The notes below the pieces were generated by a model, which searched no databases, was not told where the DNA came from, and worked only from the letters and a program-made list of their open reading frames with translations. Positions 3,001 through 22,326 of a stretch of 28,319 nt of DNA are shown in pieces. Each line of letters opens with the position of its first letter. The stretch's first letter is position 1. The position numbers and the translations under genes were made by a program. Origin of the DNA: a virus. The DNA is taken from the IMG/VR virus record IMGVR_UViG_3300018418_000098, positions 1 to 28,319 of that record. The stretch is one strand, 5' to 3'.

Positions 3001-4827
3001 AATCTAACCGGTAATGTTACGGGTCAGGTATCCACTCTCCAAAACCATACTACTGATGCTCTTAATGAAGGTTCAACAAATCTTTATTATACTGATACAA
3101 GAGCAGACAGTGACGCTAAACATGCTATTTCTGTTACGGATACTGGAGGAGATGGATCTTTAAGTTATGCTCCTACAACTGGTATTATTACATATACAGG
3201 CCCTTCCGCGGCTGAGACACAAGCTCATTTTACAGGCGGGACTGGTATTAATTATAATGCAGGTGAAATAAAAATTGACTCTGCAGAACTAGAAAGTTAC
3301 TATAAACAAGACATAAGAGGTTACTTTACTGCCAGTGGAGATTTAACATATAATAATCAAACCGGTGAATTTAGTTTTGACGTAGAACAAGTTTACACAG
3401 CAGATAATTTTGATTCGGATTTTGGAATAGCCATTCAAACAATTGATGGTCATTTAGTTCCTGCAATCAATGAGACATACGATCTAGGGGATTCAAACTA
3501 CCGTTGGAAAGATTTATATCTATCTGGAAACACAATTAATCTTGGTGGCACTCTTATATCTGTTGACTCAAATGATGGCGGAGTAAGATTCCATAATCCT
3601 GCATTCGACAGAGTGCCTATGAGAGGTCTAGAAATTGATCTAGGTGGTACTGGCCCAAAAATTACTCTTAAGAAACACAGTACGAATGGTTTACTACAAG
3701 TAGTTGATTCTGATAATACTCAACTGAAATACGACCTATCACAACAAACTACAGATAGTTTAGGTGAAGGTTCCTTAAATCTTTATTATACAGCAACTAG
3801 GGTTGATAGTGATATTGACGCAAGATTGGTTGGTGGTACTGGAATTACGGTAGCATCAGGTGATATTTCTATTACCAATACCACAGTCACTGCAGGTACA
3901 TATGGTTCTGCATCTCAAGTGCCAGTCTTTACGGTTAATGCCCAGGGTCAATTAGATTCTGCGGGATCAGTTAGTGTTGCAGGAGTATCATCCACATCAT
4001 TCGATTCTGCTACAGGTGAATTTATTATTAATACAGCCGATGGTGGCAGTTTTGCAACACTCATACTTGATTCTGACTTTACATCACAACGTGCAAGAGA
4101 TGTAATGGTAGCAGGATCTAACATTGTATATGATTCTGCATCAGGTCTAATATCACTTAATACAAATCCATCAGTTGCGGATATTACTGCTTCAGGTAGA
4201 GTTACAATAAATGATGATAGTAATGGTTCATTTATAGTTGATAACAACACCATTCTAAGAACCTATGGTGGCAGAGATTCTGATAATGCTAATACAAACA
4301 TTCCAGCATTAGTAGGCCTAGTTGATAGCTATGGTGATGATATTATTAACATTTATGTAAGATCTGGCTTTAAGACATCAGCACATCGTTATTATGGTTC
4401 AGGCTCTGCGAAAGGTTATTACATTGCCTTTGATTCAGATGATCTATATACAGCAAGAGAAATTCAAGCTCCTCATTTAGATCTTCAACCTGGTACTACA
4501 TATAGATTCCATCAAAACGATTCTTCAATGTCTACACATGACATAAGATTCTATTTTGATAATGAAAGAAATGGTTCTATTACCGACTCTGCAGCAAAAG
4601 TAATCTATAGTGGAACAGCCGGGGATATTAATGTTGGCAATACTTGGTCTCAAATCAGAGTTCATGATTATGGACCTAGAACAATTGCATATCAATGTTT
4701 AAACCATCCCTATATGGGCAATGCAGCTAATACAAATACAACCGGTGGAGGTAGAATTTGGTCTACGGCAGATGGTGTAAAAATAGAGGGACTTATTTAC
4801 GGTACCCTTGATGGTGGTACATATTAA
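1..4827 (+). CDS. Giant tail-fibre-like structural protein, C-terminal part (5' end outside window)
   Basis: The frame is open from base 1, so this is the C-terminal 1608 codons of a longer gene; an internal GTG at 163 is not a credible start. It is a mosaic of phage-fibre modules. A G(T/E)(Y/F)GS...P..TV..(Q/Y)G module occurs three times (near 91, 571 and 3885). LYYT..R motifs occur near 328, 3080 and 3780. A DLYHDGSN module lies near 823-1020, and YDLG...RWKDLYLSG occurs near 1057 and 3478. A repetitive stalk (1200-1740) is followed by a KGKPVYITG module with a His cluster (about 1920-2330) and a GASTGHTQGD module (about 2520-2980). A cupredoxin-like segment (about 4456-4720) precedes the GTLDGGTY terminus. 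These modules are familiar from marine T4-like phages. The exact position on the virion (long fibre, baseplate fibre or whisker) cannot be assigned. Asp-Ser dipeptides are very frequent. The gene ends just before a late promoter. Confidence 0.85.
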   Translation, partial: ETFRIIGGNSISTSATKIGSEYRLVLDVDSTGVTPGEYGSGAQVPVLTVNDQGQVTAINTVAVAGVTNLEYDSSDNSGEITISTADGQTFTTAVTLSPFSTSDLKESDNLYYTRARFDSALGDATSTSTIRGMISTSGDLQYDANTGVISVDIQQVYTSEDFDSDLDQAIENSVNIHWYPDSNYFDLNVTGVDSGTFGSATEIPTFTVDRYGRLYDITTTTVAGVDSTSWLSNLNTFRINTADGGTYDQVIDSFGQDIRFQNDVKITLGSTDGIDVDLYHDGSNFFVKNNASGKVEVWSDQQYFKTGDGNTLFDAERLGEGVRLFYDNLVKFQTTDSGVNVLGNILPDLDSTYDLGSLNRRWKDLYLSGQSIYLGSLVLSDSDGALAVKNANGQTVDLVAKHARFDSAYISQLTVDSLNVSQLHIDSSFINNFNIVNMEANTAEIQQLAVDSISAQTLNVVTGDIDQFTTDSAYAIQLNVVTGDIDTLTSANAILDSVYAGQLNVATGDIDALTSANATIDSGTITNLNAVDALIDSARITNLNVITGDIDTATFGQVSIDSAYISQFNADSGVITNLKSTSAIVNDNLLIKENGFIEFEPTDYLSAPSYQEGRLWYNQDAKTLYLQGASDSLDILLGEREWIRARNNSGTTIEKGKPVYITGVHIPGHPIHGRHPHIALADASDVNKKDVIGLAGETIADGSHGYVVVRGVLNGIDTSNLTEGERVHLGFNTPGALTSTAPEYPNYPMDVGTCLTADSAGAGGSLYVTLYDHTFERFRVTGATRIDGNVTIAGNLQVLGTQTTSSSAALNVSDTFIYLGGGDTIGEAGTNFQGLGSGGTGLDDATISGHFTGEATTTYWVRIKTAGAQDVIEWAKDSDFSSIEYFDSAGTGLTEWNLSTDGLAAMLAGQDNQVITFGASTGHTQGDRWKGTASPINVQIGIAGNYNNPADSYAHSGLFRDVSDQRWKFFTGYQPEPEGNINTSDPTFALAPVQFSMGYGNLTGNVTGQVSTLQNHTTDALNEGSTNLYYTDTRADSDAKHAISVTDTGGDGSLSYAPTTGIITYTGPSAAETQAHFTGGTGINYNAGEIKIDSAELESYYKQDIRGYFTASGDLTYNNQTGEFSFDVEQVYTADNFDSDFGIAIQTIDGHLVPAINETYDLGDSNYRWKDLYLSGNTINLGGTLISVDSNDGGVRFHNPAFDRVPMRGLEIDLGGTGPKITLKKHSTNGLLQVVDSDNTQLKYDLSQQTTDSLGEGSLNLYYTATRVDSDIDARLVGGTGITVASGDISITNTTVTAGTYGSASQVPVFTVNAQGQLDSAGSVSVAGVSSTSFDSATGEFIINTADGGSFATLILDSDFTSQRARDVMVAGSNIVYDSASGLISLNTNPSVADITASGRVTINDDSNGSFIVDNNTILRTYGGRDSDNANTNIPALVGLVDSYGDDIINIYVRSGFKTSAHRYYGSGSAKGYYIAFDSDDLYTAREIQAPHLDLQPGTTYRFHQNDSSMSTHDIRFYFDNERNGSITDSAAKVIYSGTAGDINVGNTWSQIRVHDYGPRTIAYQCLNHPYMGNAANTNTTGGGRIWSTADGVKIEGLIYGTLDGGTY
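1200..1740 (+). repeat. Degenerate repeats encoding a fibre stalk
   Basis: The translated segment repeats LNVVTGDID-like units; the Thr codon of each unit starts at about 1384, 1444, 1519 and 1639. The units are separated by DS(A/V)Y..QLN and TSANA..DS strings. Spacings are 20, 25 and 40 residues, all multiples of five, with hydrophobic residues recurring at short intervals. This suggests a beta-structured trimeric shaft, though no structure can be proven by eye. The repetition is at protein level, and codon use has diverged between copies. Confidence 0.6.
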
Positions 4828-4830
4828 CTA

Positions 4831-4838
4831 TATAAATA
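4831..4838 (+). promoter_or_regulatory. T4-type late promoter (TATAAATA)
   Basis: An exact match to the T4 late-promoter box (read by sigma gp55 with the gp45 clamp in T4) lies 3 nt after the stop of the giant fibre gene. A roughly 45-nt leader separates it from the next ATG at 4889, which has an AGGA ribosome-binding site. No -35 element is expected. It probably drives the fibre block up to the adhesin genes, since no other intergenic consensus box occurs before 19667. Confidence 0.75.
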
Positions 4839-4888
4839 ATGACAAGTGGGATTTTTATCCAATTAACTTACCTTTTTAGGAATTAGAT

Positions 4889-6097
4889 ATGGCAGCAAAT
4901 ATTAAGCTAAAGAGATCGGCTGTTGTAGGCAAGCAGCCTCAAGCAGGAGACCTAGACTATGGTGAGCTAGCTCTTAACTATAGTGATGGTATTCTCTATT
5001 ATAAAAATTCAGCAAATGTAATTAATAGTATTTCTGGTGGTGGTGCTATTACTGATAGTGATGCGCCGACTCAGTCTTTACAAGATGGATCACTTTGGTG
5101 GGATGCCACAAATGGTAAATTAAAAATTTATTATATTGATGAAGATGCTCAAACAACACCACAAACAATATCTCTTACTTCTACAGCTTCTACTAACCAT
5201 GACTATGAAATATCAGGTTCCGATAGAATCACAACACATAGTAGTGCTTTAGATCCCAACATATATCTTATTCAGGGTGACACATTACAAATCACCCAGA
5301 ACTCAGGTGCCACGCATCCCATGTATTGGGTTACACAACTTAGTATTACAGACTCTTATGATGCCCAGTATAATATATCAGGTGTAACAAACCAAGGTGC
5401 TTATGGCGGAGTCGTAATTTCACATCAATTTAATACAGTTGGTACTTTTTATTACATTTGTTCATCACACCCTATGATGGTCGGCACTATTACTGTCGTG
5501 GCAGCAGAAGCTGCAGGAGCACAATGGGTTGATGCAGCGCCTGGTTCCATTGGTTATACAGGTTCTGCCGGTGCAATTTTTCAAGGGGAAACAGCTCCTG
5601 CTAATCCAACAGACGGTCAGATCTGGTACAATTCACAGACAGGTAAATCATACATTTATTACACAAATCCTGCCACTTCTCAATCTCAATGGGTATTACA
5701 AGCAGATCCTACTGTAACCGATGGCGATACTGGATATTCTGGATCAAGAGGTTATACAGGATCACAGGGTGCTTTAGCACCAAGATTTATCTCTATTTCT
5801 TCACCCACCGCAAATAATAATAGAACTCTTATGTATGTTCATACAGCGATTACAGTAACAGCCGCACGAGCCGCTATTGTGAATGGTACAAACGTGACTT
5901 ATAATCTTTATTTTAACAGTAGTCGCAGTGGCACTGGCACACAAATCTGTGGAGAAACTACAACAAGCACTACCACAGGATCAACACCAACAATTGCAAA
6001 TGCATCAGTACCTGCAGGTAGCTGGATCTGGGTTGAGATAACTGGTGTAACTGGATCGGTAGATGAATTTAATTTAAGTATAGACTTTACAGGGTAA
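4889..6097 (+). CDS. Structural fibre protein with cupredoxin-like domain and collagen-like motifs
   Basis: This 402-aa protein starts MAANIKLKRSAVVGK and continues with DLDYGELALNYSDG. This N-terminus recurs on structural proteins of marine T4-like phages and probably marks virion attachment. Short SLWWDATNGKLKIYY and QIWYNSQTGKSYIYY strands (residues about 68-82 and 244-258) look like repeated beta motifs. Residues about 103-204 form a cupredoxin-like domain with candidate type-1 copper ligands H143, C191, H194 and M197. A short collagen-like GYTGS stretch (about 222-294) leads to a C-terminal beta-rich domain (about 298-402). It is the first gene after the late promoter, with RBS AGGA about 8 nt upstream. 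Structural role is likely; copper binding is inference. Confidence 0.8.
   Translation: MAANIKLKRSAVVGKQPQAGDLDYGELALNYSDGILYYKNSANVINSISGGGAITDSDAPTQSLQDGSLWWDATNGKLKIYYIDEDAQTTPQTISLTSTASTNHDYEISGSDRITTHSSALDPNIYLIQGDTLQITQNSGATHPMYWVTQLSITDSYDAQYNISGVTNQGAYGGVVISHQFNTVGTFYYICSSHPMMVGTITVVAAEAAGAQWVDAAPGSIGYTGSAGAIFQGETAPANPTDGQIWYNSQTGKSYIYYTNPATSQSQWVLQADPTVTDGDTGYSGSRGYTGSQGALAPRFISISSPTANNNRTLMYVHTAITVTAARAAIVNGTNVTYNLYFNSSRSGTGTQICGETTTSTTTGSTPTIANASVPAGSWIWVEITGVTGSVDEFNLSIDFTG
5195..5500 (+). other. Cupredoxin-like module with amicyanin-type ligand spacing
   Basis: The module reads as a GSDR.TTHSSALDP start, then a GDTLQITQ strand, THPMYW carrying the upstream His (H143), and a C-terminal loop YYICSSHPMMVGTITV. 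That loop gives C191-x2-H194-x2-M197. In cupredoxins the four ligands are one upstream His plus Cys, His and Met in the last loop; C-x2-H-x2-M is the spacing of amicyanin. Ligand conservation is seen in the sequence; metal binding is inferred. Confidence 0.65.
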
Positions 6098-6102
6098 TTG
6101 AT

Positions 6103-7074
6103 ATGGCAGCTTTAACATTTCCATCTAATCCAACTCACTTAGACCTCTATACTGATCCTAACCAAGCCAAATGGCAGTGGGATAGTGATAATACTGTTTG
6201 GAATGTAATAACATCAACAACTAGAAAAAACTTTAGTGGAGTAAAAAGAAATATTATTAATACTGATTTTTCTGTTACTAACTCCTATCTTCCAATAGAA
6301 TTTGAAGTTTCCCAATATGAGGTTGATAATTATTTTATAAACAGTGATACTACCGCAACAGCACCATCAACCGGATATTATAGAATTATATCAAATATAT
6401 TTGCAGGTACAGAAGGTTCTGGTGCATCCTATACGGTAGAACTAAGAAAAAACAATGTTGAATTGTATATGATTCAGTTTGGTCCTAATCAATCTGTAAC
6501 AATTGATGAAACACTTAGTCTGGTTGCCGGTGATTATATTAATCTTTATGTAAAAGAAAATGTTGGCGTAGGTACATTGCTTGCTGCAAGTACATTTACT
6601 ATGTATAGATTGGGTTATTCTCCGGGCACTGGTATAAGTAATCACAATGCGTTTAGTGGTGTTAAAACTATAATTACTCAACCGTTTAATACAACCTCGA
6701 CATTAACTCCAATATCTTGGGGTACGACTGATTTTAATGCCAATGCTAACGTTCTTGGTGACCTTTATTGGTATTCGGCGGTGCAAGAAAGAATTACGGC
6801 AAGAACAACAGGATATTATAGTTGTAAGGTTTTTGCACAATCTGGAACAGCAGGTTCTGGAAACTCTTATACAGTTACCTTAAAGAAAAATAGAAATCTC
6901 CCCAGTGAAACTGATTTATTTACAATATCTATTAGTCCAAATGATTTTGTACAATTGGATGAAACTCTTTATTTGCTTGAGGATGATTTTTTAGAATTAA
7001 TGGTATCTAATAGTGATAACACAGGTAGTTTTACTACCGATACATATTTAGAAATCGTCAGAGAAGGAGTATAG
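6103..7074 (+). CDS. Structural protein with two tandem C1q/TNF-like domains
   Basis: This 323-aa protein opens MAALTFPSNPTHLDLYTD, with W-x-W-D-S-D following. This short N-terminal motif is shared with the 735-aa collagen-like protein at 12676 and is typical of marine phage fibre proteins. Two repeats follow, each starting FSGVK (residues about 44-174 and 184-323). They share a TGYY(R/S) strand, GSG(A/N)SYTV.L(R/K)KN, and an acidic ..(I/L)DETL.L...D(Y/F) strand. The order and the TGYY strand suggest a C1q/TNF-like jelly roll, a fold used as trimeric receptor-binding heads; this is fold inference from motifs. The start is 5 nt after the previous stop, with AGGG as the probable RBS. Binding specificity is unknown. 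Confidence 0.75.
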   Translation: MAALTFPSNPTHLDLYTDPNQAKWQWDSDNTVWNVITSTTRKNFSGVKRNIINTDFSVTNSYLPIEFEVSQYEVDNYFINSDTTATAPSTGYYRIISNIFAGTEGSGASYTVELRKNNVELYMIQFGPNQSVTIDETLSLVAGDYINLYVKENVGVGTLLAASTFTMYRLGYSPGTGISNHNAFSGVKTIITQPFNTTSTLTPISWGTTDFNANANVLGDLYWYSAVQERITARTTGYYSCKVFAQSGTAGSGNSYTVTLKKNRNLPSETDLFTISISPNDFVQLDETLYLLEDDFLELMVSNSDNTGSFTTDTYLEIVREGV

Positions 7075-7077
7075 TAA

Positions 7078-7446
7078 ATGGCGTTTGTTAAATCAACTAG
7101 TACACTATCTGCTGATGCCGTTACAGTACCAAACCTATCAGGCGGTGATAATGGTAAGATAGTAAGAATGACCGGATCTAACACAACAGTTAATGCATTA
7201 AATACAGATACTGTAACACAACTTATGGCCGTATTGTGTAAAATGGGTGATGAATATTATGCAGCAGGTGTTGTTTCTGGATTTACAGGACTCACACCCG
7301 GCGCGCCATACTTTTTGGATGCAACTGGTGGTATTATATCATCACCGCCCACACCAAGTGCAAGTACAAGAGCCTTGTATATTGGTTTTGCTACTAACTC
7401 AACAGATATCGTCTTTAGACCAGGAATTCCAGTTTCAGGAACTTAA
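7078..7446 (+). CDS. Small fibre-associated structural protein (unknown)
   Basis: This 122-aa protein starts at an ATG preceded by GAAGGAG, 3 nt after the upstream stop. It has no signal peptide, membrane helix or cysteine cluster. The second half contains VSGFTGLTPGAPYFLDATGG followed by a Pro-rich turn, RALYIGFATNSTDIVF and an RPGIPVSG end. A TGLTPGA.Y(F/Y)L element is common in phage fibre modules where a small beta domain precedes or closes a fibre. The compact size and position between fibre genes suggest a fibre accessory, cap or chaperone-like part. No specific function can be assigned. Confidence 0.65.
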   Translation: MAFVKSTSTLSADAVTVPNLSGGDNGKIVRMTGSNTTVNALNTDTVTQLMAVLCKMGDEYYAAGVVSGFTGLTPGAPYFLDATGGIISSPPTPSASTRALYIGFATNSTDIVFRPGIPVSGT

Positions 7447-7449
7447 TAT

Positions 7450-10400
7450 ATGACTATTGCCAATCTAACACAGCATTATACTTTAGTAGACTCAGATTTT
7501 TTGGGTTTACCAGTTATGCATCATATATCTAATGATGGATATTGGTATACCTATCATCCATCTGATCTTACTAATAATGCTACACTTACAGGTAATGCTA
7601 TATCACCCTACCAATGGGATTCTGCACTAGATATTGCAACAGCTTCTGCACTATCAGGTGAACCTGAAAAAATGGCATTAGATGGTACCATTGCATTTAT
7701 TGATGAAACACATAATGGATCATCATTAAGATATCATGGAGGCTGTATTCAAAATATCGGAACAGGCGTTAATGATATTACCAATATTAATGAACAAGAC
7801 GCGTTTTTCTTTGGACATATTGGTACATGGGGTGATGATGGTACCCAAAATGGTGGTTTGTTAGAAGATGATGCTTTTTATTGGGATAGGGCTTATCATA
7901 CATCTGCAGGAGCAGATTGGGAATTTTATCAATACCACAAACACCTTCCTTCCAACTACGCTCAGTTTGATGACGGCAGATTAGTTTGGGATGCTGATGG
8001 ATATATTAGACCTGCTGATAAACAGTATGGTTATCTAATTACTATCCGAGCTACATCAGGCGGTTCTTCTTATAATGTTCCACTTGCACGTATCCACACG
8101 CCATCAGTAGGTGGTGCACATAACTCACACAATGATGTTACTTTGCCATCAACCGCTGGTATTAACTATCTTGCCGGTGGTATTTTAAAAGGATCATCAA
8201 ATAGATTCCATGCTTTTTATATGGATTCCTCATCAACAGATGGTGAATGGAATGTGTATTCAAGAACCTATACATCATCTTCAGGTTCGTTTACTCCTCA
8301 GGTTAATTATGGATCATTTGATCTAGCAACTCCTACATTTGTGCCATATCCTGGTGGTAATGCTCAAGCTGAAGGTATTATGAGTCAATATCCAATGAGG
8401 GTATCAGCAGGTCATACATTTGGTTCTTATGTATACTGGCCGACAATTATGAAGGCAGAAGTTATTGACTTTGGCGATCTAGTTGTTACTGCAAATGGTG
8501 GTAACCTTTATCAATTAAATGGTACGGACAGACAAGCCCCAGGTACACTTGATGGTGTGGCTAACCATCCGACTGTAAGATTAAAAGTTGGAGATACCGC
8601 AAGATGGGCATTTGCAAATTCTGGTGATGCATCTACACATCCACTTTATATTAAGACAAACAATCAAACGAACACGACTGGTCAGGCTGCGGGTGCTTCA
8701 GGGCATGGTACACAGTATATTACCTTTACACCACAAACAGCAGGTACATATTATTATGTCTGTGTTGTACATAGTGGTATGTATGGTACTATTATTGTTG
8801 AAGATATAGATGATACTTATGATACTCAGATTTGGCGCGTAACGGATGCTAATACTATTTCACCTGGTACTTTAACACGTATCAATATGCCATGGAATTT
8901 TAGAAGTACACCGGAACGTCCTGATGTCTTAATAACAAGTGTTGGTACAAAGTTATATGTAGCTGGTACTGGATCTTTAAGAGGTGGTGCCGATCTCTAC
9001 AGCGCCGAAACTTTGATTGATTCTACTGGATCACTATATGATGAAGGACAAATTGTCACTAATACTGTTGCTAATGATTTAAGAATTCATGGCTTTAAAT
9101 ACAATGCTACCAACACTAAGTTCTACACACTATTAAGTGGTACTCAAGGTACTGGTACATATTCTGGAAAGGGTCTTTATAGTTTTGATCTTGCTGGTGG
9201 GTCGTTTGCAGGTTATGATCATTTAGATTATGATGTAGCTACAGGAAGTTTTATTACTAAAGGGCCTAATACATCTGGGCATATTCAATATACTCACTCA
9301 AATGCAGAATTTGTAAAAAAGACAACTTCCGAACCTGAGGGTATTACACAAGGCACTTCTATTCTACAATACGATGTTGCTTCCCCGATATTCTTTAATA
9401 AAAAAGAAATTAATACAGGCGCAGAGGAATATTATTATCAAGGTATCTATCTTTCTGATGGTCGCAAATGTCTAGTGGGGCGTGTTGAAGATAATGTGCA
9501 AAATACTGGCCTTGGCGGTGATCTATTATTAACTATTATTGATAACGAAAACAACTCAATTAGCTATACATACACAGCTGAAGGTGATGATTATATTACA
9601 GGTGTTATCGAAGATGTGCAAAATAACTCCTTAATATTATCTGGATACGCAAAGGGCGAATTGACTAGTAAAGGTTCACAATTGGTTCATGGATGGGGCA
9701 GAAACCTTAAAGAAACCGCTGATTCGGCTGATATGTCATTTACAAGTTTGTTTAAAACTAATGATAATGGATTTAAACTTGTAGGCAATGATGTAAGAAT
9801 TAAATCACCGTTTTTGGCTACTTATGATGAGAATTATAACTATACTGGTGCAAAATATTTTTCATTGGGGTTTGACTCTGATGAAATACATACTGTAACC
9901 CCACTCGCAAATCATAAAGATTATATTGTATCAGGATGGACAAAGAATGGCACGTTGTATAAAAATGGTTATCTTGCAAGACTTGATTCAGCAGATAATG
10001 TAATCTGGTCAAAGCGGTTTGGAGTAAGCAATAACTACAGTGAAATTACAAGCCATGCAGTAATAAATAATAATGGAATTGATAACATTGTAACATTTTT
10101 AACAAATGAAACTAATGATGACTCCTCTAGGGGAGCTGGTATTTTATCAGTTATTAATGCTGCTAATGGCGATATTGCGACTTCTAAACTTATGCAGTTT
10201 TCAAACGCCGATTTTCATATTAATAGAATAAGACCAGGTAGACCAAATACAGGTGAGTTTTTATTTGCAGGATCTGATAAAACTGGTAATTATAGAGCAC
10301 CTAGTTGGGGTATTGGTAATGTTAATTCTAGTACTTTAGTTGATTATGTAAGACATCATTCTTGGGCAAGTACATCTGTTGCAGATGCTCAGATCCGTTC

Positions 10401-12672
10401 AATTGAAGCTGGTTATAATGATATCAGATTAACCAGATATGATTCTGATAATGCTCAATGGCGGATTGTTGTTGCTGGTAAAAGAGAAGATATATCATTA
10501 GCAGACTCAGCACAAACTCCTGTAAACTATACTTCATATGGCCACAGATCTTTTGCGATTGCTGGTAGATATGATTTAAGAGATTCTGCAAATGGATGGG
10601 TGTCGGATATTGTATGGGAAAAACAATATCAAAGTTTAAGAAATGAAGCTTATGTTGAAGAAATTAATACTCTTCTATCAGAAGATTCCAATCAAAGAGA
10701 ATGGTACTTAAATGAGCCTGATCATAATAACAATATGGGCAACAACCGTGTTATTATGTTAGCCACTGGTCTTAATCTTGATAGTGACGCATCTAATAGT
10801 TTTGGTATGCTTTGGAGAAATGATACACTTGTTGCGGGTATAAATGATTCAGATGGCTCATTGTATTTTGCAAATACTCTTGGGCATATGGGCGAGGACT
10901 TTATTAATAAAGATATGGTTTGGGATCGTCTCGGTAAAAACTTTGTATTTGGTGGAAGTTCAACTTCGCACTCCTATGGCAGAGATGCTGTAATGTTTAG
11001 ACAATGGAAAACTGGATTTGGAACAGGTGTATATCATACATCATATTCAACTTCAAATGCTTATTATTATGATTCTAATCCCATTACTGCAATAAATGAT
11101 ACAGTTTTACAAAACAATACCACTGAAATATTGGACCCAACAATGTTTACTGTAAACATTGATACAAACAATATTTCAACAAGTGTATTGGATAAAACTT
11201 ATTATAGCACGGAATATAATGGTTCATATGGTGCAAATGGTTTGTTTACTGGATTTCTTGGCATTGTAGAGTTGTCTGGTTTACAAGAATTTTTAAACAC
11301 ACCAAGATATCAAGAAGAAAGAAATAAAGGATATAATATCCACGCTGCAAATGAACTCTTTGAAATATACCAGATGTCGACGGTTGGAGATGCGACCGCG
11401 GACGATGGTAATATATTTGCTTACGATGTTATTAAATCTTCTGATAATGAATATTATTATACAGGCGGCCAAATATCTGGTAATATGGCAAAGACTAATA
11501 CTGGTCTTTCCGGTGTTTATGATTATTGGTTAGGTCAATTTAATATCGCAACAAAGGAATTTCGATTCTGGCAGAACGGATCTGCGGACGATGAAGAAAT
11601 ATATGCAATTACAGAATTAAGGGGTTCTACTCCTTCAAACTTAGTTGAAGATCCACCTGTTACAAATAATGGGTCTGTAAACGGTGTTGTTAGCTGGACT
11701 CCCGATACTGCGGGAACATATTACTATCAATGTGGCAATCATGCTAATATGAATGGTATTATCACTGTTACTGATCAATCAAGTGGCACAGGAACCTATA
11801 ACCTTAATGTTACATCAACATTTACCGGAGGAGCGTTGTATTGGGCAATTTCTGGAACTGATAGAGCTACTACTCATAGCAGTGCTCTTAATCCAACCAT
11901 TACAATGGATACCGGTGATACAGTTAATTTTAGTGTAAGTACAACTAGCAATAATCACCCATTCTATATTCAGGTGTCACCCGGTATTTCACCAAAGGCA
12001 GGAAATATTGCAGTTGTAGGTAGATCAACTGGTGATCTCGCGGGGCCAGGCACAACTATTGGTGGATATGATATTTTCTTAGGTATATTCAATCCTACTA
12101 CATGGAGCGGAGAATATTATGTAAACGGTTCAGGGTTTAATGATAAAGCAATGAACGTACATGATATTGACGACACCATAGAGAATACACTAGCTATTGT
12201 ATATACAACTTTTGGTAGTGTAAATGGTTCAGCAACATTTGGTTCTGAAGATATTGGGGTTATTACGTTTAACTATGCAACTGATACTTGGAGTCAAGGA
12301 TATAATACTGGATCAGAAACCTCAGAAGAAATTGAACAAAATGGTAAGCCAAGTTCAAGATTACCAGACGGAAGAATCGGAGTTGTCTGCAATAGCGCCG
12401 GAGCCTTTGCTGATGATGCCAACACCTTTGGTCTAAAGGATATCGGATTAGGTATCTTTGATTTTGATAGTGACGGTTCTGGCAACTTTAATGGTTGGTC
12501 TAAATATCAAGTAGGATCCGGATCTTCTGATTTCTCATATAGCATAGATAACAATGGATCTACATTCTTAGTAACAGGATATTCGGAAGCAACATGGGAT
12601 AAAGAAGTACATGGTGTGTTTGTTGAATTCGACCCCGAAAGAGGGTTCTTAGCGAAGTCCGCAGGGAGTTAA
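7450..12672 (+). CDS. 1740-aa beta-propeller-like structural protein with inserted cupredoxin segments
   Basis: The start ATG follows AGGAACTTAATAT, 3 nt after the previous stop. Kelch- or propeller-like beta repeats appear to fill most of the protein. Examples are D.QIWRVTDANTI near residue 457, DIFLGIFNP (about 1536) and DIGLGIFDFDSDG (about 1665), with aromatic and acidic turn residues recurring. Two segments break the pattern. Residues about 345-452 are a canonical cupredoxin-like domain (H397, C438, H441, M444). Residues about 1398-1512 carry the same two halves in swapped order (C1428, H1431, M1434, then H1503). No catalytic motif was recognised. The context suggests a large exposed virion protein for receptor or glycan binding. 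The propeller call comes from the repeat pattern only and is moderately sure. Confidence 0.8.
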   Translation: MTIANLTQHYTLVDSDFLGLPVMHHISNDGYWYTYHPSDLTNNATLTGNAISPYQWDSALDIATASALSGEPEKMALDGTIAFIDETHNGSSLRYHGGCIQNIGTGVNDITNINEQDAFFFGHIGTWGDDGTQNGGLLEDDAFYWDRAYHTSAGADWEFYQYHKHLPSNYAQFDDGRLVWDADGYIRPADKQYGYLITIRATSGGSSYNVPLARIHTPSVGGAHNSHNDVTLPSTAGINYLAGGILKGSSNRFHAFYMDSSSTDGEWNVYSRTYTSSSGSFTPQVNYGSFDLATPTFVPYPGGNAQAEGIMSQYPMRVSAGHTFGSYVYWPTIMKAEVIDFGDLVVTANGGNLYQLNGTDRQAPGTLDGVANHPTVRLKVGDTARWAFANSGDASTHPLYIKTNNQTNTTGQAAGASGHGTQYITFTPQTAGTYYYVCVVHSGMYGTIIVEDIDDTYDTQIWRVTDANTISPGTLTRINMPWNFRSTPERPDVLITSVGTKLYVAGTGSLRGGADLYSAETLIDSTGSLYDEGQIVTNTVANDLRIHGFKYNATNTKFYTLLSGTQGTGTYSGKGLYSFDLAGGSFAGYDHLDYDVATGSFITKGPNTSGHIQYTHSNAEFVKKTTSEPEGITQGTSILQYDVASPIFFNKKEINTGAEEYYYQGIYLSDGRKCLVGRVEDNVQNTGLGGDLLLTIIDNENNSISYTYTAEGDDYITGVIEDVQNNSLILSGYAKGELTSKGSQLVHGWGRNLKETADSADMSFTSLFKTNDNGFKLVGNDVRIKSPFLATYDENYNYTGAKYFSLGFDSDEIHTVTPLANHKDYIVSGWTKNGTLYKNGYLARLDSADNVIWSKRFGVSNNYSEITSHAVINNNGIDNIVTFLTNETNDDSSRGAGILSVINAANGDIATSKLMQFSNADFHINRIRPGRPNTGEFLFAGSDKTGNYRAPSWGIGNVNSSTLVDYVRHHSWASTSVADAQIRSIEAGYNDIRLTRYDSDNAQWRIVVAGKREDISLADSAQTPVNYTSYGHRSFAIAGRYDLRDSANGWVSDIVWEKQYQSLRNEAYVEEINTLLSEDSNQREWYLNEPDHNNNMGNNRVIMLATGLNLDSDASNSFGMLWRNDTLVAGINDSDGSLYFANTLGHMGEDFINKDMVWDRLGKNFVFGGSSTSHSYGRDAVMFRQWKTGFGTGVYHTSYSTSNAYYYDSNPITAINDTVLQNNTTEILDPTMFTVNIDTNNISTSVLDKTYYSTEYNGSYGANGLFTGFLGIVELSGLQEFLNTPRYQEERNKGYNIHAANELFEIYQMSTVGDATADDGNIFAYDVIKSSDNEYYYTGGQISGNMAKTNTGLSGVYDYWLGQFNIATKEFRFWQNGSADDEEIYAITELRGSTPSNLVEDPPVTNNGSVNGVVSWTPDTAGTYYYQCGNHANMNGIITVTDQSSGTGTYNLNVTSTFTGGALYWAISGTDRATTHSSALNPTITMDTGDTVNFSVSTTSNNHPFYIQVSPGISPKAGNIAVVGRSTGDLAGPGTTIGGYDIFLGIFNPTTWSGEYYVNGSGFNDKAMNVHDIDDTIENTLAIVYTTFGSVNGSATFGSEDIGVITFNYATDTWSQGYNTGSETSEEIEQNGKPSSRLPDGRIGVVCNSAGAFADDANTFGLKDIGLGIFDFDSDGSGNFNGWSKYQVGSGSSDFSYSIDNNGSTFLVTGYSEATWDKEVHGVFVEFDPERGFLAKSAGS
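8482..8805 (+). other. Cupredoxin-like module inserted in a propeller-like blade
   Basis: The segment runs from an NLYQLNGTDR start through VGDTARWAF, THPLYIK (H397) and TAGTYYYVCVVHSGMYGTI (C438, H441, M444). The flanking text (EVIDFGDLVV before, DTQIWRVTDANTI after) looks like the two halves of one propeller strand motif. The module is therefore probably an insertion in a loop. Ligand identities are seen; the insertion is inferred. Confidence 0.6.
11641..11985 (+). other. Cupredoxin-like module with halves in reversed order (circularly permuted)
   Basis: The C-terminal half comes first (VTNNGS...SWTPDTAGTYYYQCGNHANMNGIITV, with C1428, H1431 and M1434). A short linker leads to the N-terminal half (SGTDRATTHSSALNP, then GDTVNFSV and NNHPFYIQ with H1503). 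In the module at 5195-5500 these halves occur in the opposite order. Both ends join propeller-like text. Confidence 0.6.
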
Positions 12673-12675
12673 TAA

Positions 12676-14883
12676 ATGGCAGCGTTAAATTTTCCAATCA
12701 ACCCATCACATGGTGATACATATAGTACTAATAGCATATCATATTTTTATGATAGTGATACTACATCTTGGGTTGCATCTACATTTATTGGCTATACTGG
12801 ATCTCAAGGTTTTACGGGATCTAAGGGGTCGGGTTATACTGGATCTCAAGGTAACCTAGGATTTGTTGGTTCGGTAGGTTTTACAGGATCTATTGGTTTT
12901 ACAGGTTCTAGAGGTTATGGTGGATCTGCAGCTGCTCAGGGCTTAAAATACGAAGCTGATCCAAGTTCAACAACTGTTAACCAAGCCGCTAGTGGTTCTA
13001 TTCGTTGGAACAATGCTACACTTACATCTGCCTCTCAGATTGGTATTCACAGAACAAGTTCAGATGGTCATGATAATATTAACTATTTAAATACCTTTGA
13101 CGATTATGGGGGTACTACTGATCGTGGTTATCTAATGATAAGATCTGCAGATGCTAACTCATCTGACTTTTTACTTTATAGAGTTACTGGAAATAGTACT
13201 TTCTCTAATAGTGTAATGTTGTTTGATGTTACATACCTTGGAGGTACAGCTGTATTCTCAGCAAATGAAGACACTATTTTATCTTATACCCATAGAGGTA
13301 ATTCAGGCTTTGTGGGCTCACAAGGTGATCAAGGGTTTACAGGTTCACAAGGTCTCAGAGGATATTCTGGATCGTTAGGTTATTCTGGATCAGTTGGTGA
13401 TAAAGGAGATATTGGATATACTGGATCACAAGGTAACCAAGGTGTGCCAGGTATTAGTGGTTCTGGAGGAGGTATATTCGGGCTTGTCGGTGAAAAGTCA
13501 GCAACTCCTGCTTCTGGAGATCAATTCTCATTTGGTAACGGTGCTACTGGTAATATCTATGGTGTAAAAATACCAGAAGATATGGTTCTTGAAGCTATCA
13601 CAGTTACAACCCAAAATGCTGTAACAACTCCTATGAACATTTCTGTAAGAAGAGGTGGTGCTGCTATTGCACAGGCCCAAGTTGGCTTTGGTAATAATGA
13701 TGTAAGAATATCAAATTTAAACGTATCAATAAACGCAGATGATGAAATTTCTATACGATGCGAAACATCTTCTACTGGTTCGGGTGCAGTAATTGCAACT
13801 GCTTGGTTTACCACAAATGGAGCTAAAGGTTATACAGGATCTCAGGGTATTCAGGGTCCTCAGGGTCCTTTAGGTGATACAGGTTATACTGGGTCTCAGG
13901 GTGTTATTGGTTATACTGGATCTCAGGGAGATATTGGTTATACAGGATCTAAGGGCGATCAAGGTATTCAGGGACCTATCGGCTATACTGGTTCTCAAGG
14001 TATACAAGGTCTTCGGGGATATACAGGATCTCAAGGTATACAAGGTGTAAGAGGCTACACAGGTTCTCAAGGTGTTATTGGTTATACAGGATCAAGAGGC
14101 TCAGACGGTACATCGATTGCAATTCAAGGGTCTGTTGCTACAACAGGTAATCTACCAAGTTCTGGCAACACAGCAGGTGATGCTTACATTGTTACAGCTA
14201 ATGGTAATCTATATGTTTGGGATGGTTCTGCATGGATTGACGCAGGGCAATTTGCTGGCTATACTGGATCTCAAGGGGTAAGAGGTTATACTGGTTCTAA
14301 AGGTGATACAGGAGCTGGAGGCCCAGGAGGTGCACAAGGCCCTAGAGGATATACAGGTTCTCAAGGTATTCAAGGTCCTGGTGGTCCTGGAGGTCCTCAA
14401 GGCCCTAGAGGTTATACAGGATCTAGAGGTGCAACAGGACCAGGTGGCGGTACTGGTCCTCAAGGCCCTAGAGGTTATACGGGCTCTAAAGGTAATACGG
14501 GTCCTGGAGGTCCTAGAGGATATACAGGTTCTCAGGGTAATACGGGTCCTGGAGGTCCAGCGGGTCCTGGAGGTCCAGCGGGTCCTAGAGGTTATACGGG
14601 CTCTAAAGGTGATACAGGTCCTGGAGGTCCAGCTGGACCAGGTGGCGGTACTGGTCCTAGAGGTTATACGGGCTCTAAAGGTAATACGGGTCCTGGAGGC
14701 CCAGCGGGTCCTGGTGGTCCTCAAGGCCCTAGAGGTTATACAGGATCTAAAGGTTCAAACGGAACCAACGGCAGTGCTGGGCCTACAGGCCCTAGAGGAT
14801 ATACAGGTTCTAAAGGTGCCACAGGGCCGGCAGGTACTACATCAGCAGCTAAAGCTATTGCTATGGCAATTGTATTTGGGTAA
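12676..14883 (+). CDS. Collagen-like fibre protein with GYTGSQG repeats
   Basis: This 735-aa protein starts [16 protein letters not shown], the same N-terminal motif as the protein at 6103, with GGGAG as RBS and a start 3 nt after the previous stop. Four Gly-X-Y blocks (nt about 12790-12927, 13300-13470, 13828-14106 and 14257-14838) alternate with globular inserts. The inserts are residues about 85-205, a second beta domain at about 273-384, and a short [20 protein letters not shown] module at about 500-525. The last block is rich in GPGGP and GPRGYTGS, then the chain ends in [12 protein letters not shown]. Collagen-like blocks in phage fibres are known to form trimeric stalks, so this is likely a trimeric fibre. 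Without prolyl hydroxylase, stability would depend on sequence and caps. Receptor specificity is unknown. Confidence 0.88.
12790..14838 (+). repeat. Collagen-like GYTGSQG coding repeats (four blocks)
   Basis: Units such as GGTTATACAGGATCTCAAGG recur with synonymous variation in four blocks. The last two, at 13828-14106 and 14257-14838, are the densest. Near-identical units (for example GGTTATACGGGCTCTAAAGG at several places in 14470-14690) point to recent slippage or recombination. The repeats keep the Gly-X-Y triplet phase. Confidence 0.85.
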
Positions 14884-19689: not shown

Positions 19690-22326
19690 ATGATAAAAAT
19701 AGCGATAATAGACTTACTAGGTCTAACATATGATGGTGATACATTAAACAGTAGAGGTTTGGGTGGATCTGAATCTGCTGTTATTCTTATGTCAAAAGAA
19801 TTGGCTAAGATTGGATTTAATGTAACCGTATTTAATAATTGCCTTGACAGTCAAGCTACTCCTGGTATATACGATAATGTAAAATTTATTGACCATACAC
19901 AAGCGGATACTAATGAAGTATTTGATATTGTAATATCTTCAAGATCTGTTTATCCTTTCTTTGCAAATAATCAATACGGTACAATGTGTGCAAATGCAAC
20001 ACATAAAGTTGTATGGATGCATGATACTTTTTGTGAAGGTGATCAACATATTGAGGATATGATTAATCAAGGTATTATTGATGAATTGTTTACTCTATCT
20101 GATTTTCATTCTACATATGTACTTAATTGTGATCATGGAAGCAAGAGAAATTTTGAAGTATTAAAACATAAAATATTTCAGACACGTAATGGAGCCGTAA
20201 AGTATATTGATGAAATTAATCTTTCTAAAAAAGACAAAAATCATTTTGTATACAATGCGTCAGTTACAAAAGGTCTTAAACCACTTCTCAATGATATTTG
20301 GCCAAAGGTAAAAGAACAAATACCGAATGCTCATTTAACTGTTATTGGTGGATACTATAGATTTAGAGAAGGAGCCGAACCAGACGCCCAAGAAAAAGAC
20401 TTACACGCCTTTGAAGAATCAATATCAGAAGATCTTAATGTAACATTTACTAACGTAATACCTCAAAACCAAATAGCCGATATATTAGCAAATGCTACTT
20501 ATATGATATATCCAACAGACTTTCCCGAGACGTTCGGTATATCCTCATTAGAATCTCTTTTATATAAAACACCTATCATTACATCTAGGTTTGGTGCTCT
20601 TGAAGAAACAGCAATTGACTTGGCGTGTTATAAAACTAATTATGCTTCTGTGCCTAATAGTTTATTTCCTCATATAGATGCCCAAGCTCAATCTGATATT
20701 TTTGTTTCGAAGGTGTTAGAAGCATATGGTGATGATTATCTTCTACAACAAAAACAAAACTATTGTGATGTAATTAATGATATCTATGGATGGGATACAG
20801 TAGCACTACAGTGGAAGCAGCAGTTTTATTTTAAATTAGAAAAGTATCTACCGGTAGATGACTATCGTAAGGTACAACAAATTAATGATAAAGTCAAGAG
20901 GGTTTACGGCAGAAGATTTGATAATGAAGTTGAAAGGCAAGTCTATAAAAGTTATGGTGATCAAAAAAGAATTGTAATTATATCACCGTTTTGGAACGCT
21001 AGTGATTATTTACTTGCACATTGTGAATCTATTGATCAACAAGATTACGATAATTATCTACATATATTGATAGACGATGCGTCTGATGATGTAATACCTG
21101 AATTACCCGAAAATAAAAAAAGAATATTTGTTCAAAATCCCCAAAGGCTAGGCTGTATTAGAAATCAAATGAATGCTTTTCATCGATGGGTTGAGGAGGA
21201 TGACATTGTAATACTTCTTGACGGTGATGATTTTTTAGTAAGTAATAATACTATATTCCATTACTATAATCAATTATATAATGATGGAATAGAATTTACT
21301 TATGGCTCCTGTTGGAGTATGGCGGATAGCATACCTCTTATTGCACAAGATTATCCTACAGATGTTAAACTTAATAAAACATATAGAGAGCATTTATTTA
21401 ATTGGAAAATACCATACACTCATTTAAGAACCTTTAAAGGTATTCACTGTAAGGATCTTAACTATAGTAATTATAAAAAAGATGGAAAGTGGTTAATGAG
21501 TGGCATGGACAATCCTTTATTTTATGAACTTATAGAAAAAGTAGATTCAGATAAAATAAAAGCTGTTAAAGAAATAACATGTTTTTATAACGACATTAAC
21601 CCACTAAATGATTATAAGGTAAACCCAATGGAACAAAATCAAAACGCTGATACATCTTATGAAACATCTGAAGAAAAACATGCTCCTCATTTACTTTATA
21701 AAAAAATTGAAGAGTTGCCTGAGATTAATATTCTTATAGCGGTGCCAACAAATAAGTATATTTCTCCAGAAACATTTAAATCAATTTATGATGTAAAGAA
21801 ACCTCAAAATGTTAAATTACATTTTGAATACTTTTTTGGCTATATGGTTGATCAGGTTAGAAACCTTGCCGTTGAGTGGGGTAAGAATTATGATTATTTG
21901 TGGTTTATAGATAGCGATATTTCTTTTGATGAGGGTGCTTTGATCAGACTTTTAAGTCATGATAAAGACATTGTTTCAGGAGTATATGTTCAGAGAAAAG
22001 AACCACATAATATTACTGAATTGTATCATGATACTGGTAAGGGTCAGGAGAATATTATTTGGACAGAAGAATTAAAAAACAAGGTTTTTAGGGTTTCTGC
22101 ATGTGGAATGGGTTGTGTTTTAATAAAAAGACATGTATTAAAAACCATTGAGTATCCTCATTTTTATTATCAATCGGCAATTAATCATATGAATACAATT
22201 TCTGAGGATGTGTACTTCTGTAATAAAGCTAAAAAACTCAATTGGCAAATCTGGGCGGATGGTGGAGTAATATGTCATCATCATGGTGAATCAGTGTTTA
22301 TTCCAACAGATGAAGAAAAAAAATAG
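19690..22326 (+). CDS. Three-domain glycosyltransferase fusion (GT4-like, GT2-like, third GT-A-like)
   Basis: This 878-aa protein has three segments. Residues 1-~400 look like a GT-B, GT4-type transferase: SRGLGGSES (21-29), SVTKGLKPLL (191-200) and the E-x7-E element ETFGISSLE (E280, E288). Residues ~427-660 look like a GT-A, GT2-type domain with IDDASDD (461-467) and a DGDD metal site (511-514). Residues ~679-865 form a second GT-A-like domain with WFIDSDI (D741, D743), SACGMGC (803-809) and ISEDVYFC (837-844; the ED is a plausible base), then HHH at 862-864. No signal peptide or membrane segment is seen, so it should act in the host cytoplasm. Targets could be the Ser/Thr/Asn-rich fibres just upstream or host glycans. 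Donor sugar is unknown. GTs near fibre genes are known in marine T4-like phages; a triple fusion is less usual. Confidence 0.85.
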   Translation: MIKIAIIDLLGLTYDGDTLNSRGLGGSESAVILMSKELAKIGFNVTVFNNCLDSQATPGIYDNVKFIDHTQADTNEVFDIVISSRSVYPFFANNQYGTMCANATHKVVWMHDTFCEGDQHIEDMINQGIIDELFTLSDFHSTYVLNCDHGSKRNFEVLKHKIFQTRNGAVKYIDEINLSKKDKNHFVYNASVTKGLKPLLNDIWPKVKEQIPNAHLTVIGGYYRFREGAEPDAQEKDLHAFEESISEDLNVTFTNVIPQNQIADILANATYMIYPTDFPETFGISSLESLLYKTPIITSRFGALEETAIDLACYKTNYASVPNSLFPHIDAQAQSDIFVSKVLEAYGDDYLLQQKQNYCDVINDIYGWDTVALQWKQQFYFKLEKYLPVDDYRKVQQINDKVKRVYGRRFDNEVERQVYKSYGDQKRIVIISPFWNASDYLLAHCESIDQQDYDNYLHILIDDASDDVIPELPENKKRIFVQNPQRLGCIRNQMNAFHRWVEEDDIVILLDGDDFLVSNNTIFHYYNQLYNDGIEFTYGSCWSMADSIPLIAQDYPTDVKLNKTYREHLFNWKIPYTHLRTFKGIHCKDLNYSNYKKDGKWLMSGMDNPLFYELIEKVDSDKIKAVKEITCFYNDINPLNDYKVNPMEQNQNADTSYETSEEKHAPHLLYKKIEELPEINILIAVPTNKYISPETFKSIYDVKKPQNVKLHFEYFFGYMVDQVRNLAVEWGKNYDYLWFIDSDISFDEGALIRLLSHDKDIVSGVYVQRKEPHNITELYHDTGKGQENIIWTEELKNKVFRVSACGMGCVLIKRHVLKTIEYPHFYYQSAINHMNTISEDVYFCNKAKKLNWQIWADGGVICHHHGESVFIPTDEEKK

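Follow-up and report, generated by a model that had tools for sequence, protein, structure and literature searches.

Four modules in the structural proteins of a T4-like phage are best explained as cupredoxin domains like those of type-1 ('blue') copper proteins, quite probably serving as sandwich building blocks of tail-fibre, baseplate-connector and virion proteins with a predicted metal stake. Their sequences suggest that ocean phage particles may carry metal ions, probably copper. The window, meaning the whole stretch of DNA analysed (28,319 nucleotides, virus record IMGVR_UViG_3300018418_000098), is a fragment of a T4-like phage; its terminase shares 71% identity with that of Phage C48C1 (Kyanoviridae) and otherwise 46-48% with cyanophage terminases, and neck, sheath and terminase genes lie downstream of the module-bearing ORFs. 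The spacing C-x2-H-x2-M occurs four times in the ORFs of the window (9350 amino acids) against 0.013 occurrences expected from composition, and all four motifs were confirmed in frame where the original prediction had placed them (Table 1). A nearby histidine in THP, NHP or THD, put forward there as the fourth ligand, was found for all four modules, but in module 4 it lies downstream of the Cys and the order is swapped. The three carrier ORFs are real as well, but they do not form the consecutive block that was described, as two module-free ORFs (6103-7074 and 7078-7446) intervene between the second and the third.

Table 1. Module-bearing ORFs, modules and candidate ligands in the window (nucleotide positions)
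Feature	Position	Strand	Remarks
ORF A, tail-fibre-like structural protein, at least 1608 aa	1..4827	+	Open at the 5′ edge of the window; module 1 near C-terminus
Module 1, cupredoxin-like, type B, complete	4342..4740	+	Profile match E 7.6e-38
Module 1 ligands	His 4537-4539, Cys 4696-4698, His 4705-4707, Met 4714-4716		First His in THD; CLNHPYM 4696-4716
ORF B, 402-aa structural protein	4889..6097	+	Carries module 2
Module 2, cupredoxin-like, type A, complete	5156..5503	+	Profile match E 1.1e-28
Module 2 ligands	His 5315-5317, Cys 5459-5461, His 5468-5470, Met 5477-5479		First His in THP; CSSHPMM 5459-5479
ORF E, 1740-aa structural protein	7450..12672	+	Module 3 near N-terminus, module 4 in C-terminal repeat unit
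Module 3, cupredoxin-like, type A, complete	8479..8805	+	Profile match E 2.8e-28
Module 3 ligands	His 8638-8640, Cys 8761-8763, His 8770-8772, Met 8779-8781		First His in THP; CVVHSGM 8761-8781
Module 4 first part, C-terminal half (profile 52-119)	11575..11775	+	Match extends slightly into host repeat
Module 4 first-part ligands	Cys 11731-11733, His 11740-11742, Met 11749-11751		CGNHANM 11731-11751
Permuted domain, inferred extent in repeat unit EEIYAxxEL...GxIAxxGR	11620..12000	+	Ends uncertain by several residues
Module 4 second part, N-terminal half (profile 5-69)	11800..11991	+	First His 11956-11958, in NHP

Residues 1458-1581 of ORF A match the tail fiber protein family phrog_30742 (E 4.8e-23) and residues 46-271 of ORF B match PHROG tail families. 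ORF E has only the module in common with phrog_677, the cyanophage gp9-like baseplate wedge tail fiber protein connector that bears the same module at its C-terminus (profile 307-410 of 412); it is otherwise different and is not gp9. ORF A also contains a His-rich stretch, VHIPGHPIHGRHPHIALADASDV, as a further possible metal-binding spot. Stretches of GYTGSxG in ORF B are similar to those of a collagen-like protein at 12676-14883, which has GYTGSxG and GPxGPxGP repeats. An 878-aa protein at 19690-22326, among tail and neck genes, matches phage glycosyltransferase families with its N- and C-terminal parts, and one more C..H, found at 22273 within a glycosyltransferase-like ORF, lacks the Met and was rejected as unrelated to the modules.

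The phage modules read as one family, whose types A and B are together too diverse in one alignment for pattern searches, and this family is almost certainly homologous to the cupredoxins. The proposed profile search supported this: with a profile of 41 phage modules, type-1 copper proteins headed the PDB list, namely copper nitrite reductases (6hbe, E 3.7e-7; 4kns, 1.3e-5), pseudoazurin (0.0014), amicyanin (0.0023) and rusticyanin (0.0042). Solved type-1 copper proteins matched at E 3.7e-7 to 0.02, and unrelated entries such as fimbrial adhesins first appeared at about 0.7 or worse. The alignment places the first His of the phage modules on the His of amicyanin GHN and the phage YxCxxHxxM on YHCTPHPFM, with the four ligands in register. 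When the four ligand columns were masked as X, rusticyanin and copper nitrite reductase still made up the top 11 PDB matches, albeit weakly (E 0.015-0.19), and the resemblance to type-1 copper proteins does therefore not come from the ligand motif alone. The cupredoxin fold itself is already known, and module 3 can be flagged by Pfam (PF00127 Copper-bind, 22.7 bits, above the gathering score of 21.2). Module 2 stays slightly under this cut-off with 19.9 bits, modules 1 and 4 gave no Pfam match, and most single modules fall short of the Pfam models.

AlphaFold2 prediction from module 1 and 41 sequences gave an eight-strand sandwich (pLDDT 87.4, pTM 0.83). Its Foldseek neighbours in the PDB were mostly cupredoxins at weak scores (E 0.003-0.05, none below 0.001; TM about 0.4-0.5) and included non-cupredoxins such as an SO1698 peptidase. 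Whether the Cys, two His and Met come together in the predicted fold, a condition named in the original prediction, was addressed indirectly, through this model, its PDB neighbours and the alignment on the amicyanin ligands. In the viral library it matched phage tail-fibre, gp9-like and gp7 proteins. Four giant-virus BFVD models annotated as 'beta-sandwich protein' in Marseillevirus LCMAC and Pithovirus LCPAC (A0A481YWX9, A0A481YY19, A0A481Z6J5 and A0A481Z7Q7) also match the model.

The conservation of the ligands was assessed in 195 distinct full-length, non-permuted modules derived from 239 loci and the window. His-Cys-His-Met is complete in 188 of them, part of the sample (the wider set) having been collected via patterns that contain ligand residues; in the subset obtained with a ligand-free pattern 74 of 77 are intact, although its members are close relatives and the figure becomes 4 of 5 when redundancy is cut to 60%. 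Retention of all four candidate ligands across strongly diverged copies, as originally claimed, is borne out at a median pairwise identity of 27%: the Cys, both His and the Met do not vary freely, and they are lost as sets. The ligand columns rank 2, 3, 4 and 6 of 97 in conservation, in a ranking that still held three misaligned permuted rows, the effect of which, if any, is to lower the ligand ranks. The seven degenerate modules, HSDM (2), ESNA (2), KDHV, HSHI and YASM, lack two to four of the ligands, and single losses were not found among the 195; apparent ones (ECHM, KCHM and QCHM) came from permuted modules whose rows were aligned wrongly across the host repeat, and these were left out. 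Column shuffles, which ignore relatedness and give fractions that are not strict probabilities, produced as many joint losses in 0 of 20000 cases at 80% redundancy and in 140 of 20000 at 60%. In gp7 of Prochlorococcus phage P-HM1 (L003) a degenerate KDHV module lies adjacent to an intact one, offering a within-protein comparison of site loss.

Residues around the site are similarly constant in the 188 intact modules. The amicyanin spacing C-x2-H-x2-M, another point of the original prediction that stood, is present in 187, as is a Tyr two positions ahead of the Cys. Pro directly follows the first His in 183, and is replaced by Arg or Leu in five of the seven degenerate modules. Classical type-1 sites commonly, though not universally, have Asn or Ser in this position, and the second shell of the phage modules therefore differs from theirs. 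The ligand Cys is the sole Cys in 178 of the 188, which leaves no disulfide within the module.

Characterised relatives use an equally ordered set of one thiolate, two imidazoles and one thioether to bind copper. The loss of the site in a few modules (7 of 195) indicates that the scaffold does not depend on it. Even so, nearly every copy retains the four ligands and losses are joint, and a metal site is for this reason the simplest reading. It was weighed against a fold without metal, in which the cupredoxin sandwich was adopted as an all-purpose domain for adhesion or spacing, with packing as the sole reason to keep the four residues. Such a use would agree with the seven scaffolds that outlived their sites and with the frequent reuse of Ig-like sandwiches in tail proteins, and a module-bearing protein of P-HM2 (L005 1973-7456) is indeed annotated with an Ig V-set Pfam domain (PF07686). 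The four residues are, however, spread over the module and still outrank almost all core positions, the joint losses are seldom or never matched by the shuffles, and a lone free Cys would presumably be costly in an extracellular protein; packing alone is an improbable explanation. As a separate observation, the P-HM2 protein contains two intact cupredoxin modules.

With the metal-site reading, there is a good likelihood that metal is bound in the virions. A single thiophilic metal ion would sit in each intact module. In the completed particle this is most likely copper, and zinc may be taken up during folding in the host cytoplasm, where free copper is scarce; overall, copper seems somewhat the likelier of the two. 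The ion would tie the C-terminal Cys-His-Met loop to the loop of the first His and thereby stake exposed loops of the sandwich, instead of forming part of an electron-transfer chain. A structural or adsorption role is favoured over electron transfer because no redox partner was seen and the sites are scattered in large structural proteins, and a mainly structural one, given metal, seems moderately likely.

For marine cyanobacteria copper is mostly toxic rather than limiting. This weakens a receptor or Trojan-horse role, by which metal-loaded modules at the tail tip would be recognised by host metal uptake or would bind surface ligands via the metal, and modules are also found in proteins not known at the tip, e.g. 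subtilisin-like proteases. Their presence in tail-fibre, gp7 and gp9-like baseplate proteins is what such a role would predict, and an iron version of the idea has been published (PMC11705849); for the modules described here we give it a small probability. Redox-active sites that transfer electrons, as those of amicyanin and plastocyanin do, would account for a ligand set and loop spacing equal to those of amicyanin, but are very unlikely with no redox partner gene among the window ORFs, with single sites scattered in large structural proteins and with Pro in place of the second-shell Asn or Ser. Lower still stands the possibility that the conserved Cys forms inter-subunit disulfides stiffening the tail: one Cys per module in presumably trimeric proteins would suit it, and tail-stiffening disulfides are reported in phage Milano (PMC10811340), but the equally conserved two His and Met and their joint loss would be left unexplained.

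The staked cupredoxin domain thus preferred shares several features with amicyanin and other type-1 cupredoxins (PF00127 Copper-bind, PF13473 Cupredoxin_1), namely the His-Cys-His-Met order, the C-x2-H-x2-M loop, profile homology, the Y-x-C at the Cys and, following the Met, a strand resembling G-x-(I/V)-x-V. It differs from them in being embedded in large structural proteins, in the Pro after the first His and in having no redox partner gene among the window ORFs; the methylamine dehydrogenase genes that accompany amicyanin are absent around the modules, whose neighbours are phage tail, neck and terminase genes. Copper nitrite reductase domains (6hbe, 4kns, 9cck) are the best PDB profile matches, but neither a type-2 copper site nor a catalytic partner domain was recognised with the phage modules. 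The plastocyanin of cyanophages (petE) is a stand-alone protein of ~100 aa with a C-x2-H-x4-M loop, whereas the loop of the modules is two residues shorter and lies inside large ORFs. T4 gp37 is an iron-binding HxH tail fibre. Metal in the tail fibre of a marine phage has been proposed for the iron-binding HxH fibre of Alteromonas phage R22Y (PMC11705849); compared with iron on the HxH motifs of these two fibres, the modules present a candidate four-ligand thiolate site within one domain.

Type-B relatives were found in 40 phage records and the broader type in 233. The phages are mostly those of Synechococcus and Prochlorococcus, with others of Pelagibacter and Methylophilales and one Actinomycetia phage, and podoviruses are among them; small genomes are represented by P-SCSP2 (Autographiviridae) and Pelagibacter phage Baldr (39-kb record). 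Their carrier proteins are annotated as tail fibre, gp7 baseplate wedge, gp9-like connector, virion structural protein and subtilisin-like protease. The module also occurs in Flavobacteriia, Alphaproteobacteria and other bacteria, in several cases behind signal-peptide-like N-termini; it is therefore not confined to phages and has likely been exchanged with hosts. Nearly all of the bacterial relatives (L240-L260), which are secreted or lipoprotein-like proteins of marine Flavobacteriia and Alphaproteobacteria, have His-Cys-His-Met, and one of them (L247) has Asn for the first His and keeps the other three ligands. Flavobacterial lipoprotein-like proteins in this group end in the module, and several alphaproteobacterial proteins have two in tandem.

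Module 4, judged by the order of its halves, is a circularly permuted cupredoxin module in which the Cys-His-Met half comes before the first-His half, the first His lying 75 residues downstream of the Cys. The swapped order, the flanks and the four ligands are kept in 8-9 distinct relatives at 50-77% identity from several separate metagenomes (the permuted alignment comprises eight distinct relatives and the window, a near-copy of one being omitted). An empty site exists in L146/L147, where EEIYACTELNDGSGSIAFVGR corresponds to EEIYAITEL-[about 127 residues]-GNIAVVGR in the window; because the same repeat unit is encoded there free of the domain, module 4 is read as an insertion of roughly 11620-12000. 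In the permuted copy the old ends would be joined and new ends opened in the loop after the first His, now inside the ORF E repeat unit. The host repeat is probably a beta-propeller blade, a reading based on the recurring GYDxFLGIF...ELxDGxIAxxGxTxG units.

As MAFFT misaligned the half-module rows, the permuted fold was predicted from whole homologues. The AlphaFold2 model reached pLDDT 87-96 over residues 52-160, which span both halves, and was poor in the flanks. Foldseek with this model returned noise and no cupredoxin, a result that the permuted order and the poor flanks may explain and that leaves the structural side of the case incomplete. An assembly or deletion artefact fusing two tandem modules would also leave a C-terminal half followed by an N-terminal half once the outer halves were deleted, but it is extremely unlikely and was ruled out as an assembly product by relatives from separate samples that keep the identical order and all ligands, besides the empty site and the high model confidence across both halves. 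Tandem duplication with loss of the outer halves is a usual route to circular permutation, and an evolutionary origin of module 4 via tandem copies and outer-half deletion is possible.

Descriptions of cupredoxin domains in phage structural proteins, or of a natural permuted case, were not found in the open-licence literature searched; the one paper there that touches both cupredoxins and cyanophages deals with Borgs and has no bearing on the modules. Among the tail and baseplate proteins of T4-like phages from the sea, many lack a known function, and a metal-site domain conserved in more than 230 phage records would provide a testable biochemical handle, i.e. metal content, blue colour and metal-dependent stability or adsorption. 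Such a domain would carry the idea of iron in phage tails over to copper or zinc, and the permuted copy, whose empty site is known, would be a clear example from nature of a domain inserted by way of circular permutation. A bolder extrapolation from these sequences, which we hold to be rather doubtful, is that the tails of common ocean phages hold so many blue-copper-type sites as to constitute a sizeable marine pool of protein-bound copper, with the metal in use when the host is met, in adsorption or triggering that depends on copper, and with a natural permuted blue-copper domain evolved inside a tail protein. In the subtilisin-like protein of Synechococcus phage S-CAM1 (L001 3407-5662) a WYQCTAHPNM half likewise precedes the first-His half TASTHPFEIRV. 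This may be another permutation, cut at a different point and lying within a protease, although the region aligns too poorly to support such a claim.
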